Of a stretch of DNA of 64,000 nucleotides, positions 2,960 to 64,000 are shown piece by piece. The position numbers were made by a program, and so were the translations under genes. Origin of the DNA: Bacteroidales bacterium (lineage in GTDB: Bacteria > Bacteroidota > Bacteroidia > Bacteroidales > Muribaculaceae); assembly GCA_014800795.1 (NCBI GenBank), contig JAAVFL010000004.1, positions 1-64,000 of the forward strand, given 5' to 3'. Each line of letters starts with the position of its first letter. The first letter of the stretch is position 1. Under the pieces are notes generated by a model. That model did not search any database, was not told the origin of the DNA, and saw only the letters and a program-made list of their open reading frames with translations.

Positions 2960-4012
2960 TCAGATAGTCATTTCACCGCATATAGGATGAAGGAGGCTGT
3001 TGGCGACCTGGCGTGGAGTGAGCCCTGTTCCGAAGAGGAACATCATTTTAGTAAGCGCGGCTTCGGTAGTGAGGTCATGGCCCGATATCACTCCGGCCTG
3101 AGCCAGATGATTACCTGTCGCGTAGCGTTTCTGCTGTACTCCACCGTTGACACACTGGGTTACGTTCAGAACCACTACACCGCGGTCCACGGTATCTCTC
3201 ACGGCGCGCTGAAACCATTCGCAAGTGGGTGCGTTTCCGGCACCGTAGGTCTTGAGTACGACTCCTTTTACGCCGGGTGTCTCGAGTTGCTGACGCAGAG
3301 ATCGCTCGGTCATTCCGGGATTTACGTATACGATGATAACGTCCGTGTTGAGTCCCGTATGTACTTTCAGCGGCAGCCTGTCGTGAAGTCTCCATAGTGA
3401 GTCGATATTGAACTGGATCGAAAGTCCTATCTTGGCGAGCTGGGGATAGTTGTTGCTTTTGAAGGCGTTGAAGTTGTCGGCGCTCATTTTTGTGGAGCGG
3501 TTCCCGCGCCAAAGATAGTTTTCGAAAAGTATAGCCACCTCCTGAACCATCGGTTCACCGTTGATGGGATCTACCGCGGCGGCAATCTGAAGTGCAGTTA
3601 TAAGGTTCTCTTCACCGTCGGTTCTCACTTCTCCGATGGGAAGCTGCGACCCTGTGATGATGACAGGTTTATGCAGATGTTCGAGCATGAACGACAGCGC
3701 AGAAGCTGTGTATGCCATTGTGTCTGTGCCGTGGAGAACTACAAATCCGTCGAAGTGATTGTAGTTCCGCCCGATTTCAGATGCGATCTGTTGCCAATGT
3801 CCCGGGTTTATATTACTTGAATCGATAGGCGGGTCGAACTGTATATGCTCGATATCGTAGTCAAGCATTTTGATCTTCGGTACGTTATCAATCAGATGAT
3901 TGAAGTCGAACGGACTGAGAGTATGTGTACACGGGTCCTCTATCATGCCGATAGTGCCTCCGGTATATATGATGAGGATGCGCGGCCGCGTATGGCTTTC
4001 GGTCTGCTTCAT
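2960..4012 (-). CDS. ansA: Type I L-asparaginase
   Basis: Hydrolyses asparagine to aspartate and ammonia. The 350-residue protein has no signal peptide and so resembles the cytoplasmic type I enzymes. The first active-site signature is IYTGGTIGMIED, with the catalytic threonine near residue 20. The second is VVLHGTDTMAYTAS, with Thr96-Asp97. The substrate-lysine region TGSQLPIGEVRTDGEENL is also present. It follows metG on the same strand with a 72-base gap and could be read from the metG promoter. Its 3' end faces pyrC across a long hairpin. Confidence 0.92.
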   Translation of the reverse strand: MKQTESHTRPRILIIYTGGTIGMIEDPCTHTLSPFDFNHLIDNVPKIKMLDYDIEHIQFDPPIDSSNINPGHWQQIASEIGRNYNHFDGFVVLHGTDTMAYTASALSFMLEHLHKPVIITGSQLPIGEVRTDGEENLITALQIAAAVDPINGEPMVQEVAILFENYLWRGNRSTKMSADNFNAFKSNNYPQLAKIGLSIQFNIDSLWRLHDRLPLKVHTGLNTDVIIVYVNPGMTERSLRQQLETPGVKGVVLKTYGAGNAPTCEWFQRAVRDTVDRGVVVLNVTQCVNGGVQQKRYATGNHLAQAGVISGHDLTTEAALTKMMFLFGTGLTPRQVANSLLHPICGEMTI

Positions 4013-8652: not shown

Positions 8653-8706
8653 GTAAAATTATTTATAAGATTAGATGTTATTACTGCGTAAAGTTTAGGA
8701 TTATAA

Positions 8707-8798
8707 ATAAGTCTTGCATATAATGCATTCAAATAGACTTTACACTATCTGCGGCATCCTTTCGGCGGATAATATAAAATAATTTCCACGACTTACTT
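8707..8798 (-). repeat. Dispersed inverted-repeat element, copy A (deleted form)
   Basis: Read on the minus strand from 8798, the first 32 bases equal the start of the longer copy at 53437 (AAGTAAGTCGTGGAAATT...), then it jumps to the copy-C interior GGATGCCGC...AAAGTCT. The far terminal repeat is shortened. The element sits in the 5' leader of the 6340-8652 gene, downstream of the promoter at 8817-8848. Confidence 0.7.
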
Positions 8799-8816
8799 AT
8801 TATGGAAATTTTATCA

Positions 8817-17357: not shown

Positions 17358-17664
17358 GTATTTTAGCCGTTTAATTTACGGTTTTTTAGTCGCTGATATG
17401 AAATTCTCCGGAAGAATATCACGAAATTATGAGTCAGATTTTTCAAGACACCTTTTCAGACGTGCTTTTCTATTTCGAAGTGCCTCAGGATTATGCATAT
17501 TCATGATCAGGCACATGGTATGGGAATCTACATTCGGGAATATAAGTATGTATCCCGATGCTTCAGAAACGACAACGGAGGCAAGCTCTGAGATAATCAG
17601 GCTGAAATCATTCGTGAAAGAACGCTCATTCGTTATAAGTAAGTCATGAAAACTATTACGTATA

Positions 17665-17771
17665 AAGTAAGTCGTGAAAATTATTTTATACTTTCAGGGA
17701 GTGTATTTTCGAGAGAAATCCGACTGAAAGTATGCTCACGGATAATATAAAATAATTTTCACGACATACTT
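17665..17771. repeat. Dispersed inverted-repeat element, copy B (intact 107 bp)
   Basis: The left terminus AAGTAAGTCGTGAAAATT... (17665-17690) is repeated inverted at 17746-17771 with one mismatch over 26 bases. The interior also pairs (CTTTCAG/CTGAAAG), so the whole element can fold. A partial extra terminus (AAGTAAGTCATGAAAA) abuts it at about 17637-17663. No coding capacity. Minus-strand reading aligns with copy C at 53437. Confidence 0.8.
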
Positions 17772-18017
17772 AGAGATATCGTTTCTCCCATTTTTGTGAT
17801 CGGCAGTCAGATTGGTCAATTGTGACAAATTAAGATAAAGACGCGGTTGCCAATAAGCATGGCGAACCGTATCATGACGGCGCCATGATGGGAATATAGA
17901 GCAGGAGAGCAGGAGATGTGGAGGATATGAAGCTCGACATACGTGCGTTCCTACGGTGTCTCGCTCTGTTTTTTCCTCTGTTATCCTGCTCTCCTGCGCT
18001 ATTGTTATCCTGCGCTA
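17772..18017. repeat. Second repeat element with 19-bp inverted arms downstream of the GH43-SGNH gene
   Basis: No gene. Arms ATAGAGCAGGAGAGCAGGA (17896-17914) and its complement (17984-18002, one mismatch) enclose 69 bases holding CCTACGGTGTCTCGCT (17950-17965), a 16-mer found again at 33950. The part at about 17869-17914 (hairpin, then GGGAATATAGAGC) resembles 50557-50625. The sequence TTATCCTGCGCTATT recurs near 18002. The arms may also serve as terminator for the gene ending at 18018. Confidence 0.5.
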
Positions 18018-48338: not shown

Positions 48339-50123
48339 TCAGTTCTTGGAGAGTTTCTCCTTAAGAGCTGCGAGAGCCTCGATGTCGCCGAGGGTAGTCT
48401 TTTCAACGGGAGCTGCGAGTGCGGGTGCTTCCTCAGCCTTGCGGGGAGCGCGCTTGGCAGCCTTGCGGGCTTCAGCCTTCTCTGCCTTAGCCTCATCTTC
48501 AAAAATGCGGCTGTGGCTGAGGATGATGCGCTTGCTGTCTTTGTTGAATTCGATTACCTTGAAGTCGAGCTTCTCGTCAACCTTGGCCTGTGAGCCGTCT
48601 TCCTTAACGAGGTGTTTGGGAGTAGCGAAGCCTTCAACACCGTAGGGGAGTGCGATTACAGCGCCCTTGTCGAGCATTTCTACGATAGTGCCCTGATGAA
48701 CGGAACCAACGGTGAAGATGGTTTCGAATACATCCCAGGGATTCTCTTCGAGCTGCTTGTGGCCGAGGCTGAGGCGACGGTTTTCCTTGTCGATTTCGAG
48801 AACGACAACCTGGATGTCAGAACCGATCTGAGTGAATTCAGAGGGGTGCTTGACTTTCTTGGTCCATGAAAGGTCGGAGATGTGGATGAGACCGTCGACA
48901 CCTTCTTCGATTTCAACGAATACACCGAAGTTGGTGAAGTTGCGCACGCGTGCGGTGTGCTGTGAACCAACGGGATATTTAACTTCGATGTCTTCCCAGG
49001 GATCCTGCTTGAGCTGCTTGAGACCGAGGCTCATCTTGCGCTCTTCGCGGTCGAGGGTGAGGACTACAGCTTCAACTTCGTCGCCAACCTTGAGGAAGTC
49101 CTGAGCAGAGCGGAGGTGCTGGCTCCAGCTCATTTCGCTTACATGGATAAGACCTTCCACGCCGGGAGCAACTTCTACGAATGCACCGTAATCGGCCATA
49201 ACCACTACGCGGCCTTTAACCTTGTCGCCAACCTTGATGTCGGCAGCGAGTGCATCCCAGGGATGGGGCTGGAGCTGCTTGAGACCGAGAGCGATGCGCT
49301 TCTTCTCGTTGTCGAAGTCGAGAATAACGACATTGAGCTTCTGGTCGAGGGCAACAACCTCTTCGGGGTGGCTTACGCGGCCCCAAGAAAGGTCGGTGAT
49401 ATGGATAAGACCGTCGACACCGCCGAGGTCGATGAACACACCGTAGGAGGTGATGTTCTTGACGGTTCCTTCGAGAACCTGACCTTTTTCGAGCTTGGCG
49501 ATGATTTCGCGCTTCTGCTGCTCGAGTTCAGCCTCGATAAGAGCCTTGTGGCTGACAACCACGTTGCGGAATTCGGGGTTGATTTTCACAACTTTGAATT
49601 CCATAGTCTTGCCAACGAAAATATCGTAGTCGCGGATGGGTTTCACGTCGATCTGCGAGCCGGGGAGGAATGCCTCGATGCCGAACACGTCCACGATCAT
49701 GCCGCCTTTTGTGCGGCATTTGATGTAACCCTTGATGATTTCGTCGTTTTCCAGAGCCTGGTTAACGCGTTCCCATGAGCGGGAAGCGCGGGCTTTGCGG
49801 TGAGACAGGATGAGCTGACCCTTCTTGTCTTCCTGGTTTTCGATGAATACCTCGACAACGTCGCCGACTTTGATGTCGGGGTTGTAGCGGAATTCATTCA
49901 TGGGGATGATACCGTCAGACTTGTAGCCGATGTTAACCACAGCTTCGCGCTTGTTGAGGGCGATGATGGTACCTTCGATTACTTCTTTGTCCTTTACGGT
50001 GTTGAGCGATTCGTCGTAGGTGCGGGTAAGCTCCTCGCGCGACTTCTCGCAGTTGTTTTCCCCTCTTTCATAGGCATCCCAGTCAAAATCTGCGATGGGA
50101 GAGGTTTTAACTTCTTCAGTCAT
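48339..50123 (-). CDS. rpsA: 30S ribosomal protein S1
   Basis: Binds mRNA on the small ribosomal subunit. From ATG 50123 the protein has 594 residues with six S1 RNA-binding domains (first near 48-115, KEVIEGTIIALNKREAVVNIG; last near 479-548, GSVHQGTIVEMLDKGAVIALP). The middle repeats carry the GVFVDLGGVDGLIHISDLSW-type core. The C-terminal tail is Ala/Lys/Glu-rich (AEKAEARKAAKRAPRKAEEAP). The frame extends upstream to 50249, but that part is arginine-rich noise lying over the promoter. S1 matters strongly in Bacteroidetes because most genes lack Shine-Dalgarno sites. Confidence 0.96.
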   Translation of the reverse strand: MTEEVKTSPIADFDWDAYERGENNCEKSREELTRTYDESLNTVKDKEVIEGTIIALNKREAVVNIGYKSDGIIPMNEFRYNPDIKVGDVVEVFIENQEDKKGQLILSHRKARASRSWERVNQALENDEIIKGYIKCRTKGGMIVDVFGIEAFLPGSQIDVKPIRDYDIFVGKTMEFKVVKINPEFRNVVVSHKALIEAELEQQKREIIAKLEKGQVLEGTVKNITSYGVFIDLGGVDGLIHITDLSWGRVSHPEEVVALDQKLNVVILDFDNEKKRIALGLKQLQPHPWDALAADIKVGDKVKGRVVVMADYGAFVEVAPGVEGLIHVSEMSWSQHLRSAQDFLKVGDEVEAVVLTLDREERKMSLGLKQLKQDPWEDIEVKYPVGSQHTARVRNFTNFGVFVEIEEGVDGLIHISDLSWTKKVKHPSEFTQIGSDIQVVVLEIDKENRRLSLGHKQLEENPWDVFETIFTVGSVHQGTIVEMLDKGAVIALPYGVEGFATPKHLVKEDGSQAKVDEKLDFKVIEFNKDSKRIILSHSRIFEDEAKAEKAEARKAAKRAPRKAEEAPALAAPVEKTTLGDIEALAALKEKLSKN

Positions 50124-50277: not shown

Positions 50278-50766
50278 ACTTTTCACGTCCGGATGCAAAA
50301 ATATTTATTTCTCAGGTGGTCCCCGTCCCATTAGGGCAGACGGATTCGTTGTCTGCGACAATTTTTTTTCATAGATTGAGTAATCGGTTCTATTGAAAGT
50401 GTAATAGCAAAGTAATGAAAATTATTGCGTACGATGTAATCAGCGTAGCAAATGGTTGATCGTCAGCCTGGAGCGAAGTAGGGCGATTCCATGCAATGCA
50501 GTAAATTGCTGATTGTCAGCGGGGATAAAAGGCTGTTGCAGCGGGAGATGGTTTCTGCATCGAGGCACCTATGGCGCCTCGATGGGAGTATAGGGCGGGG
50601 GAGCATGGAGCGGGAGCGCAGGGGAGAAGAAAAGCCGGCATGCTGGCGTATCGCTGCGGATAACTTATTCAGCCAATGGCAGCCTGCTCATGAAATATTT
50701 TGATCAGGTTGCCTTCCGGGCCTTACTTAGTTATGACGCGGATGGGCCACGTCACCCTAATGGTTC
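50278..50766. repeat. Repeat-rich intergenic region with partial copies of both dispersed families
   Basis: No gene. 50410-50435 (AAGTAATGAAAATTATTGCG) is a damaged terminus of the AAGTAAGTC family. 50557-50625 resembles 17869-17914: a hairpin (CATCGAGGC/GCCTCGATG) followed by GGGAGTATAGGGC and G-rich GGAGC units. Near 50700, TTTTGATCAGGTTGCC recalls the motif at 9056-9068. Confidence 0.5.
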
Positions 50767-53394: not shown

Positions 53395-53436
53395 GGCTGT
53401 TCTTTTTTATTTTGAGTTATGTTTAAGTGGCTTTTT

Positions 53437-53620
53437 AAGTAAGTCGTGGAAATTATTTTATATTATCCGTGATCATACTTTCAGTCGGATTTTGCTCGAA
53501 GATGAAGGAGTGTAGCGAGCTACACGACTGAAGGTGAGGGCGAAATCCGGCGAAAGGATGCCGCGGATGATATAAAGTCTTGTTAAGTATATTATACGTA
53601 ATAATTTTCATGACTTACTT
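53437..53620. repeat. Dispersed inverted-repeat element, copy C (184 bp, fullest form)
   Basis: Left terminus AAGTAAGTCGTGGAAATT... at 53437, inverted right terminus ending GACTTACTT at 53620. The interior (TCGGATTTTGCTCGAAGATGA and GGCGAAAGGATGCCGC) is shared in part with copies A, B and E. Between them is the small palindrome TGTAGCGAGCTACA. No coding capacity. It separates two fimbrial genes. Confidence 0.8.
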
Positions 53621-53629
53621 ATCTGTGGT

Positions 53630-57000: not shown

Positions 57001-57113
57001 AAATCCCTCGTTGCGGCGGGGCACCGTATGCTCCGTCATGTTGTTTCTCTTATAGGAACGTTGCTGAATTGGCATAGGTTCGGTCGGAAACGTTAAATCA
57101 GAAATGTTAAATC

Positions 57114-57241
57114 AGGCGGGTTTTGCTCGAAGATGATGGTGTGTAGAGGGTTACCCATTGCCGCCTACGCCTTTGAACAGGTAGAAATAGACTGAAGATG
57201 AGTGTGGAGGTCGGCGAAAGGATGGAGCAGCTGATATAACG
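57114..57241. repeat. Dispersed element, copy E (interior only)
   Basis: GGTTTTGCTCGAAGATGATGG and GTCGGCGAAAGGATGGAGC align with the interior of copy C (53490-53570), but both termini are missing. It lies upstream of the fimbria operon. The rest of the 57001-57463 gap holds a -7 box and no gene. Confidence 0.6.
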
Positions 57242-61373: not shown

Positions 61374-64000
61374 ATGCGTAAACTGTTTATCCTTCTCTTT
61401 GCGGCAGTTTCCCTGTGTGCCGCAGCACGTCAGGTAACGCCTGACGAAGCAGCTGCCATTGCATCGGAGTTTCTGAACACACCCTCTCCATCGCGCCCCG
61501 TTGCAAAACGTGTTGCCGTTGCTCCGGTCAAGGCGAAATCCGCATCCGGTGACGAATCTCCGCGTCCCTTCTACGTATTCAACGCCGATGATGACCGCGG
61601 TTTCGTAATCGTGTCCGGTGACGACCGTGCCCACAAGATCCTCGGCTACTCCACCACCGGCCGCTTCGACTTCGACAACCTCCCGCCTGCTTTCGAATAT
61701 ATGCTGGGGCAGTATGAGAAGGAGATAGAAGCGCTGTCGTCAGCACCCTCCACACCATTAAAATCAGAGAATGCAGCATCAGCCTCAAGACCGGCCATTG
61801 AACCGCTCATAACGACGAAATGGGGACAAGGTACACCCTACAATCTCCAATGTCCGGTATTGGGGGATATTCAAGCACCTACCGGTTGTGTAGCTACAGC
61901 TTTCGCTCAGGTGATGAACTATTATAAATGGCCTCAGCGAGGTTCGGGCTCGCATTCATATGAATATGATGGTAATACGTATTCCATAGACTTCTCCGAG
62001 ATTGAATTCGATTGGGATGCGATGTTGGATGAATATATCTATGAAAGCGACGAGCGTAACCGGAACGCTGTAGCTACACTTATGAAGGCGTGTGGTTATA
62101 GTATTGATATGATGTATGGTGTCGCAGCGAGTGGTGCATTCACCTCAGATATAGTAAAGGCTGCAAATGAATATTTTGATTATTCCGCTCAGGCGTATTA
62201 TTCTGAGCGCAATGATTTTACTCAAGAGCAATGGGAAACGATTATATACTCTCAATTATCCGGCGGTTTACCGGTGATATATTCGGGAAGCAATGAAAAT
62301 ATGGCTCATTGCTTTGTGTGTGACGGATATGACGGGGAGGGGTATTTTCATTTTAACTGGGGCTGGAACGGATGGGACGACGGCTATTTCCTGTTATCAG
62401 GTTCGCCTGAAGCTGTGAATGGCTATAGTTCCGGACAGGGGTGTATAGTAAACTTTTATCCGTCTAATAAAGAAAATACGGATCTATCTGACGGAACATT
62501 CGTATATCAAGAAATTGACCCTGGAAAAGTGATCTTGACCGGATTAGCAGACCCGAGCCGCAAACTCGGCGGCGAAGTCGTATTACCGGACGAGACTGTG
62601 ATCGATGGTGTTACATATCAGGTGGTAATGTGCGGTCAATTATATAATATTTTAGATGTTGAAAATATAACAGGTCTTGATATTAAACTTCCCATAACAT
62701 CAATTCGTGCAAGAGCTTTTGAAAACGCCCAAAACTTAAAATCGTTATCTCTTCCATCAACATTATTATCAATTGAAAATAGCGCCTTTCTGGGCTGTAG
62801 TGGTTTGACAGGATCCTTGAGAATTCCTGATTCAGTCACGTTTATTGGTGACTATGCTTTTGGGGGGTGCGCAGGTCTTACCGGTTCACTGATATTAGGA
62901 AATTCAGTAACATCAATTGGGGATATGGCTTTCTGTAATTGTGGCTTTACCGGATCGCTGATATTCCCGGATTCGGTTTCGTTCATAGGTGATCGTGCAT
63001 TTGATGGTTGTAGTGGTTTCACCGGTTCTTTAGTAATTCCAGATTCTATTACTTCAATCAAATTCAGGACATTTTGGGAATGCAGTGGTTTTAACGGAAC
63101 CCTGACGCTACCCGAGTCACTTACTGTGATTGAGAACAGTGCATTTGAAGGTTGTAATGGTTTGATGGGATCCCTAAAAATCCCGGACTCTGTCGTTTCA
63201 ATAGGGCAGTGTGCCTTTAATCGTTGTAGTGGTTTTAACGGAACCTTGACGCTACCCGAGTCGCTTACTTTGATTGAGAACAATGCATTTGGTGGTTGTA
63301 GTGGTTTGACGGGATCCCTGAGAATTCCTGACTCAGTTACGCTTATTGATGTCCATGCTTTTGGGGGCTGCACAGGTCTTACCGGTTCACTGATATTAGG
63401 AAATTCAGTAACATCAATTGGAGAAAATGCTTTCTATAATAGTGGCTTTTCGGGATCGCTAAAAATCCCAGATTCAGTCGTTTCAATAGGAATTCAAGCA
63501 TTTTATGGTTGCAGCGGTTTTAACGGTTCTTTGGAAATCCCCAATTCGGTTACTTATATCGGAGAAAGTGCATTTAGCGGTTGTAGTGGTTTGACTGGAT
63601 CGCTAAAAATCCCGGATTCTGTCGTTTCAATAGGAAGGTACGCATTTAATGGTTGCTGTGGTTTTACGGGAACCTTGACGCTCCCCGAATCGATTACTGC
63701 GATAGAGGAATGTGCCTTTGTCAACTGTAGTGGTTTGACGGGTTCCCTGAAAATCCCTAATTCGGTTACTTATATCGGAAAAAGTGCATTTGCCGGTTGC
63801 AGCGGTTTTAACGGTTCTTTGGAAATCTCCAACTCTGTAACTGAGATTGGAAATAGCGCATTCGATAGTTGTAGTGGTTTCACAGAATCTTTGGAGATTC
63901 CTAACTCTATAGTTTCAATAGGGAGTTATGTATTTGCCTATTGTAGCGGTTTGACGGGTTCCCTGAAAATCCCGGATTCTGTAGTTTCAATAGGAACGGC
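61374..64000 (+). CDS. C10 (streptopain-like) protease fused to BspA-type leucine-rich repeats, open at the window end
   Basis: At least 875 residues with no stop before the edge. Signal peptide MRKLFILLFAAVSLCAAA, then a Spi/C10 propeptide (RQVTPDEAAAIASEFL...FYVFNADDDRGFVIVSGDD, to about residue 140). The mature cysteine protease carries Cys172 in PTGCVATAFAQVMNYY and His312 in NMAHCFVCDGY, followed by FHFNWGWNGWDDGYF. After residue about 420 come tandem 24-residue LRR_5/BspA repeats (for example CSGLTGSLKIPDSVVSIGRY), 17 in the window. It is likely secreted, cleaving host or bacterial proteins while the repeats bind a target. Base composition drops from GC-rich in the propeptide to AT-richer afterwards. 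Confidence 0.9.
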   Translation, partial: MRKLFILLFAAVSLCAAARQVTPDEAAAIASEFLNTPSPSRPVAKRVAVAPVKAKSASGDESPRPFYVFNADDDRGFVIVSGDDRAHKILGYSTTGRFDFDNLPPAFEYMLGQYEKEIEALSSAPSTPLKSENAASASRPAIEPLITTKWGQGTPYNLQCPVLGDIQAPTGCVATAFAQVMNYYKWPQRGSGSHSYEYDGNTYSIDFSEIEFDWDAMLDEYIYESDERNRNAVATLMKACGYSIDMMYGVAASGAFTSDIVKAANEYFDYSAQAYYSERNDFTQEQWETIIYSQLSGGLPVIYSGSNENMAHCFVCDGYDGEGYFHFNWGWNGWDDGYFLLSGSPEAVNGYSSGQGCIVNFYPSNKENTDLSDGTFVYQEIDPGKVILTGLADPSRKLGGEVVLPDETVIDGVTYQVVMCGQLYNILDVENITGLDIKLPITSIRARAFENAQNLKSLSLPSTLLSIENSAFLGCSGLTGSLRIPDSVTFIGDYAFGGCAGLTGSLILGNSVTSIGDMAFCNCGFTGSLIFPDSVSFIGDRAFDGCSGFTGSLVIPDSITSIKFRTFWECSGFNGTLTLPESLTVIENSAFEGCNGLMGSLKIPDSVVSIGQCAFNRCSGFNGTLTLPESLTLIENNAFGGCSGLTGSLRIPDSVTLIDVHAFGGCTGLTGSLILGNSVTSIGENAFYNSGFSGSLKIPDSVVSIGIQAFYGCSGFNGSLEIPNSVTYIGESAFSGCSGLTGSLKIPDSVVSIGRYAFNGCCGFTGTLTLPESITAIEECAFVNCSGLTGSLKIPNSVTYIGKSAFAGCSGFNGSLEISNSVTEIGNSAFDSCSGFTESLEIPNSIVSIGSYVFAYCSGLTGSLKIPDSVVSIGT
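62799..64000 (+). repeat. Tandem 72-bp repeats encoding BspA-type LRRs
   Basis: About 17 units of 72 bases (two of 69) with recurring cores such as GGTTTGACGGGATCCCTG. Units 1-2 (62799-62920) and 8-9 (63300-63421) are nearly identical and 501 bases apart, which points to block duplication. The array continues past the window end. Confidence 0.9.

Follow-up and report, generated by a model that had tools for sequence, protein, structure and literature searches.

A TA-flanked, probably IS630-moved MITE family of Muribaculaceae carries a structured hairpin core formed on one strand

The window, i.e., the whole 64,000-nt stretch of a Muribaculaceae contig (JAAVFL010000004.1) that was analyzed, contains a short non-coding element at 53436-53621, together with rearranged and decayed copies of the same element. 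A preliminary description had placed here, at 53437-53620, a member of a dispersed palindromic family; the element lies where it was claimed to lie and measures 186 bp (53436-53621), once the outer T and A are counted. The features were located through terminus searches and aligned copies, through matches to two models of the core (R1 and R2), and through a pair table mapped onto the element:

53436..53621, + strand: full 186-bp element, TA to TA, including the T and the A outside 53437-53620
53436..53462, + strand: left terminal inverted repeat (terminus searches and aligned copies)
53594..53621, - strand: right terminal inverted repeat (terminus searches and aligned copies)
53478..53557, + strand: hairpin core (model R1 match, 98.2 bits)
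53490..53545, + strand: apical core (model R2 match, 74.0 bits)
53498..53537, + strand: apex with tandem G.A steps, loop at 53516-53519 (pair table mapped onto the element)
53508-53509/53526-53527 and 53504-53505/53530-53531, + strand: G.A steps of the apex, first and second from the loop
53501-53502/53533-53534 (one G.G here) and 53498-53499/53536-53537, + strand: G.A steps of the apex, third and fourth from the loop
17636..17772, no strand assigned: chimeric copy made of a right end, a subfamily 2 left arm and an inverted subfamily 1 left arm (aligned copies)
8704..8799, - strand: deletion form with a decayed right end (aligned copies)
57109..57218, + strand: degraded remnant of a longer form (19.6 bits and E 0.016 with core model R1)
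50410..50438, + strand: possible right-end relic, weak (83% over 29 bases)

The other copies listed in the preliminary description fared differently. The one at 8707-8798 is the deletion form that it was said to be, and the one at 17665-17771 is a real copy, but not a standalone one, since it belongs to the chimera 17636-17772. The partial copy placed at 57114-57241 was found as the degraded relic 57109-57218, and the one at 50410-50435 amounts to a weak match to the right end. The statement that the copies are intergenic and without ORFs is broadly true: with a simple ORF caller, an ORF overlap of more than 60 bases was scored for one of 34 tabulated copies from the own genome.

The terminus AAGTAAGTCGTGAAAATT, searched with up to three mismatches, matched the window six times compared to 0.06 matches expected, and none of 100 shuffles reached six. 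Under the same tolerance, AAGTAAGTCGTGAAAATTATT marked 108 termini in the 2.72-Mb assembly (57 and 51 by strand), and the terminus pattern read backwards, which served as a control, had no match in that assembly. The family is thus not confined to the window, as it would be if the proposed dispersal were mistaken. The 184-bp element (53437-53620) had at least 53 BLAST matches in the assembly, with 40 of 87 candidates scored.

The aligned copies follow a common plan, in which two arms flank an apex; the left arm is preceded by the left end (TAAGTAAGTCGTGRAAATTATTTTATA), and the right arm is followed by a bulge of approximately 25 nt and then by the right end (TAAGTAAGTCATGAAAATTATTACGTATA), which is inverted. 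The terminal inverted repeats are approximately 27 bp long, close to the 26 bp first given for them. The family includes (i) forms of 186 bp; (ii) forms of 219 bp, in which a 33-nt block adjoins the apex; and (iii) shorter forms down to 57 bp, the shortest of which retain little besides the ends. The arms fall into two subfamilies, in which TTATATTATCCG goes with CGGATGATATAA and TTATACTTTCAG goes with CTGAAAGTGTAAA, respectively. Five subfamily 2 copies are 94.5 to 97.7% identical, and several contigs break off within copies of this subfamily; together, these observations fit the picture of collapsed young repeats. The interiors had been described as mosaics of shared blocks. They are indeed shared; the deeper cause, however, is that the two arms belong to a single hairpin and change in concert; the apical core, moreover, also occurs in elements with other ends. 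The 33-nt block of the 219-bp copies (GTTATCGCCTGCGCTTTTGAGCTTGTCGAAAAA; e.g., loci L005, L009, L015 and L031) is near-identical between the two arm subfamilies in spite of their different arms, pointing to exchange or constraint, and a related block is also present in L227 of genome G006. A small frame in the core, ATGAAGGAG...GACTGA, is extended in frame by the block; we do not consider it a gene because, by eye, the start or the stop is missing in several relatives. Arm copying is exemplified at L026:1500-1685, where the apex has been turned into a perfect palindrome.

The target of insertion was examined through the flanks. TA was found directly outside 98 of 110 termini at own-genome loci with a search pattern that did not contain TA, and TA accounts for 4.8% of the dinucleotides in the window. 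Among 42 tabulated sites, 30 had TA at both ends, 11 at one end and one at neither; the pattern used for this table included TA, and 5 of its 47 rows were dropped as overlapping or nested readings. Another genome of the same genus, G012, has identical 186-bp copies at eight sites, the flanks of which differ. At L226 and L199, a full element is inserted within a short one, and the outer halves, rejoined with one TA, read as uninterrupted short elements (66 and 52 bp), consistent with TA duplication. An empty site in sister strains was sought with the L031 flanks in 14 genomes of the genus, and none was found; the three flank matches (36 to 129 bases), all on contig 31 of G006, stopped short of the insertion point. 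No match to the element was detected in plasmids, and one exact pattern had 0 matches in viral contigs. Short forms that lack the core are also located at TA sites, and insertion thus does not strictly require it. Among the copies seen, the young ones (G012 and subfamily 2) carry the core and the short ones are diverse, which is only suggestive of a role of the core in the element's persistence or spread. The element is short and non-coding, has inverted terminal repeats and is present in many copies, as is typical of MITEs. Mobilization in trans, as initially proposed, is supported by the inverted ends, the TA outside them, the nested insertions, the identical dispersed copies and the IS630-family character of the ends.

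The last of these points is based on related genomes. In one of them, a 1.1-kb insertion sequence (L052) is bounded by a terminus and TAAGTAGATGTTGAAAATTAGT and contains two overlapping frames, which meet near a T run and have HTH_32 and DDE_3 matches, as in the IS630 family. By eye, 25 of 27 bases are equal between the left end of the element and IS630-family ends of related genomes. In an end search of 32 related loci, TAAGTAAGTCGTAAAAATTAATTT was exact in seven and had one mismatch in two, with records named Xylanibacter, Bacteroides and Bacteroidales among these. The ends are therefore common to the element and to IS630-family elements (L052 and the related loci), as expected of an IS630-derived MITE. 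A transposase gene with the same ends, the search for which had been recommended, thus exists in related genomes (L052), but none was found in the own assembly, where neither the DDE_3 domain search nor the search with the L052 protein produced a match. Because no such gene was found there, the copies in this assembly may be stranded. Among the 14 genomes of the genus, three have an L052-like protein (G001, G002 and G004) and eight have termini; G004 is the only one with both, G001 and G002 having no terminus at the threshold used. The mover, which is probably an IS630-family transposase, may no longer be present in these genomes or may be missing from their assemblies. Two element types differ in their resemblance to the insertion sequence: by eye, the 166-bp elements (L193, L059) have ends like its left end (GAAAATTAGTTTATAT) and the 186-bp elements have ends like its right end, as if each type had arisen from one IS end.

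The hairpin was examined through folding and covariation. For 53436-53621, the folding energy is -82.7 kcal/mol on the + strand (z -11.6 against -39.4 in shuffles) and -52.0 kcal/mol on the - strand (z -7.4). Across 44 distinct elements (180-192 bp, several genomes), pairing extends 26 positions outward from the loop. Eight of these 26 pairs make up four steps of two pairs each; they are A.G or G.A in 37 to 43 of the 44 elements, and the pairs between the steps are Watson-Crick and covary (e.g., one is TA in 36, AT in 5 and GC in 2 elements, and another is AT in 34 and TA in 7). Three alignments were used. In A1, with 23 of 24 representatives (L026 was left out), the 27 Watson-Crick pairs had 56 double-changed cells, compared to 16.7 when shuffled and 9 to 18 when slid. 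In A2, fitted to the model (48 hits, four of which are weak opposite-strand hits on another hit), a single pair between two G.A steps is AU in 17, GC in 13, CG in 9, UA in 6 and UG in 1 of the hits, and unpaired in 0. In A3, composed of 34 cores from elements with various ends and aligned with MAFFT without a model, there were 163 double-changed cells versus 52.5 in shuffles, and the covariation score was 0.483 versus 0.159 (0 of 500 shuffles). The G.A positions of the three inner steps are kept in A3 in 34, 31, 29, 32, 25 and 26 of the 34 cores, and those of the outermost step in just 13 and 15. A known conserved RNA was sought as well: Rfam 15 at the gathering score returned one tRNA and no element match in the window, and, when six element loci were searched with E up to 5, four weak matches with E no better than 0.63, all lying outside the elements.

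If the element were an ordinary IS630-type MITE only, its arms would be kept alike by quasi-palindrome correction and the hairpin would be functionless. The apex of L026, which became a perfect palindrome, is as this explanation predicts, and neither a common promoter-like box nor an orientation bias was found. Conversely, correction would erase the G.A steps, and these persist (at one pair in all 34 cores of A3) even where the intervening pairs are exchanged; this explanation also fails to account for the strand bias and for the presence of the core within other ends. We therefore regard this explanation as improbable, even if it is the strongest of the alternatives. Because palindrome correction should remove the G.A steps and does not distinguish between strands, a single-strand role is most likely what keeps the core.

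The strand bias is evident in base pairs as well as in folding energies. In A3, there are 55 G-U cells versus 10 A-C cells, with 27 rows having more G-U, two having more A-C and five ties; counted by pair, the excess is 8 to 4 and not significant (p 0.39). For the 186-nt set, G-U and A-C cells number 68 versus 20 in own copies and 47 versus 5 in relatives. The model strand folds better in all 38 A2-derived elements, with a median core advantage of 12 kcal/mol, although this energy bias is partly built in because the model strand has G.A where the opposite strand has C.T. This set was obtained from the 48 A2 hits by leaving out the four opposite-strand hits, L267, L269, L277, L293 and L294 (the last two being near-copies) and L061:675-754. 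The same strand was favored in 16 of 16 further elements among those listed (the short loci L323 and L333 were skipped). It was also favored, by 11 to 27 kcal/mol, in all five of the 166-bp elements from other genera, the orientation of which was set by motif. The other strand folds better in L021, L026, L040, L085 and L212, and in L098, the orientation of which is less sure.

A one-strand hairpin might also act in single-stranded DNA, during replication, DNA uptake or repair, and not as RNA. Tandem G.A pairs are stable in DNA too, L031 folds as single-stranded DNA at z -7.9, and neither a promoter nor an orientation bias was detected. However, the G-U excess at least accords with RNA, and TA-flanked elements transpose in the IS630 manner without needing a hairpin strand, so that we consider this possibility to be rather remote. 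REP- or BIME-like palindromes moved by a RAYT enzyme, the other origin initially considered, would likewise appear as many small intergenic palindromes but are very improbable given the long matched ends, the TA outside them and the IS630 elements with the same ends.

The core is not restricted to one kind of element. By eye, R1 cores lie between ends that include TAAGTAACTGTTTAAAATTA (G043), TAAGTAACTGGTCGAAATTA (G011, G002), TAAGTAACTCTTAAAAATTA (G088), TAAGTGAGTGTTCATTTTAAA (G051, G047), GAAGTTGTTTAAACTTTTTT (G019), GAAGTGATTTAAACTTTTTT (G020), TAAGAAACTGTTTAAATTTATG (G144) and AGAGTGTTTTTGAATTTAACTC (G122); L204 and L098, searched with R1, had no match. Some core-bearing ends intergrade with each other and with other IS630 ends (L124), so common descent with drifting ends may account for the pattern; others look unrelated. 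A nested element at L061:611-1145 (G122:C7) contains three hairpin cores, two of them inside the ends AGAGCTTGTTTAATAACAAATG.

Within the family, the R1 core was detected in 80 of 149 genomes and 19 of 30 genera, and the terminus, with up to two mismatches, in 24 genomes and 10 genera. Across the order, R1 matched 6 of 247 genomes, three of them outside the family and weakly, and R2 matched 23 of 393, of which 19 belong to 17 families other than the own one; a single weak match was frequent among them. G167, G463, G233 and G333 have 11 to at least 14 R2 copies each, a result that is partly by construction for G167, G233 and G333, because R2 was built with their rows; G463, from the same genus as G167, was not in the R2 alignment. 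In a phylum sample of 392 genomes, with at least five others of the same order, R2 matched the own genome only, which speaks for a low false rate, and this covariance model can be used to find such elements elsewhere. When 80 IS loci were searched with R2, only L135 (Prevotella ihumii) matched, with two cores, one of which lies between 23-bp inverted ends. These two cores (L135:971-1025 and 3100-3157) are located near an IS630 copy in a named, cultured host.

With a probability of about 0.68, we propose that the element is an IS630-moved, TA-targeting MITE that carries a structured hairpin core on one strand, and that this core acts single-stranded to aid the element. An IS630-family transposase would recognize the ends (about TAAGTAAGTCRTNAAAATTATTTTATA) in trans and insert the element at TA. 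Inside the element, one strand would form a hairpin in which as many as four tandem G.A steps are separated by covarying Watson-Crick pairs. This core would act in single-stranded form, RNA being the most likely one, through a factor that binds it and aids the persistence or spread of such elements. RNA is favored because G-U and G.A both favor one strand; we give it roughly even odds as the acting form, whereas single-stranded DNA is unlikely and some other form only somewhat less so. A cis role in neighboring transcripts was considered and rejected. Relative to neighboring genes, defined with a simple ORF caller, 16 elements are sense and 27 antisense in 43 tandem contexts (p 0.13), as counted for 70 of 78 rows, without L067_936, the window copy at 17636, three overlapping L199 rows, two L226 rows and L098. 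No common promoter-like box was found, TAnnTTTG being present in 11 of 82 element readings on the listed strand and in 9 on the other. The absence of an orientation bias and of a common box argues against such a role. The putative factor would act on the element's own persistence or spread. That the core is, more broadly, a passenger RNA module, i.e., a new structured nucleic acid inside MITEs with unrelated ends in one order that benefits these MITEs via a shared host factor, is a tentative suggestion to which we give somewhat less than even odds.

Among known systems, RUP of Streptococcus pneumoniae is a 107-bp intergenic repeat with approximately 108 copies at TA targets, for which mobilization in trans by the transposase of an IS630-family element with similar ends (IS630-Spn1) has been proposed (PMC2229807). 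The present element is, likewise, a short intergenic repeat with TA and a probable IS630-family mover acting in trans. Compared by description, it differs from RUP in the length of the ends (approximately 27 bp versus 9 bp), in host and in sequence, and no covarying G.A core is described for RUP in the available parts of that paper. Correia (NEMIS) elements of Neisseria have TIRs of 24 bp, TA, forms of approximately 107 and 155 bp that differ by an internal block, and a stable RNA stem-loop, with transcribed copies being cut by RNase III (available parts of PMC2229807 and PMC10969869). By description, they share with the present family the TIRs, TA, the size forms set apart by an internal block and the stem-loop; a tandem G.A core common to elements of other ends is not described in these parts. 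BrickBuilt and other MITEs of Porphyromonas gingivalis, from the same order, have predicted long stem-loops, but, unlike the present element, they have ends that match the IS5 family and a minisatellite interior of 23-nt repeats (PMC4596501, parts available to us). Palindromic structured RNA candidates, e.g., HMP2_4078, were mostly found in Bacteroidetes, and the core, compared by description with the available part of that report, could be related to them or the same (PMC8040213). The core appears undescribed in the literature searched, including the accessible parts of PMC10969869, PMC2229807, PMC8040213, PMC2864571 and PMC4596501. The same literature contained nothing on a MITE and an insertion sequence in Muribaculaceae, and nothing joining Bacteroidales, an RNA motif, a transposable element and a hairpin.

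As a MITE, the element represents an ordinary new member of the IS630 type with a presumed mover. What is new, within the literature searched, is a structure-conserved, strand-specific G.A core that is common to elements with other ends. MITEs are usually regarded as two ends plus filler; here, what lies between the ends is itself a conserved part, keeping a non-canonical one-strand structure while the ends vary between elements. If the core works as RNA, non-coding transposons across one order carry a common RNA device, the partner of which can be fished for.

Other repeats were noted in the window. A repeat array with 72-nt and larger spacing occupies 62695-63985, near the window end, and repeats at 261-nt spacing are found at 48733-49422, as in a protein with repeated domains, perhaps ribosomal protein S1.
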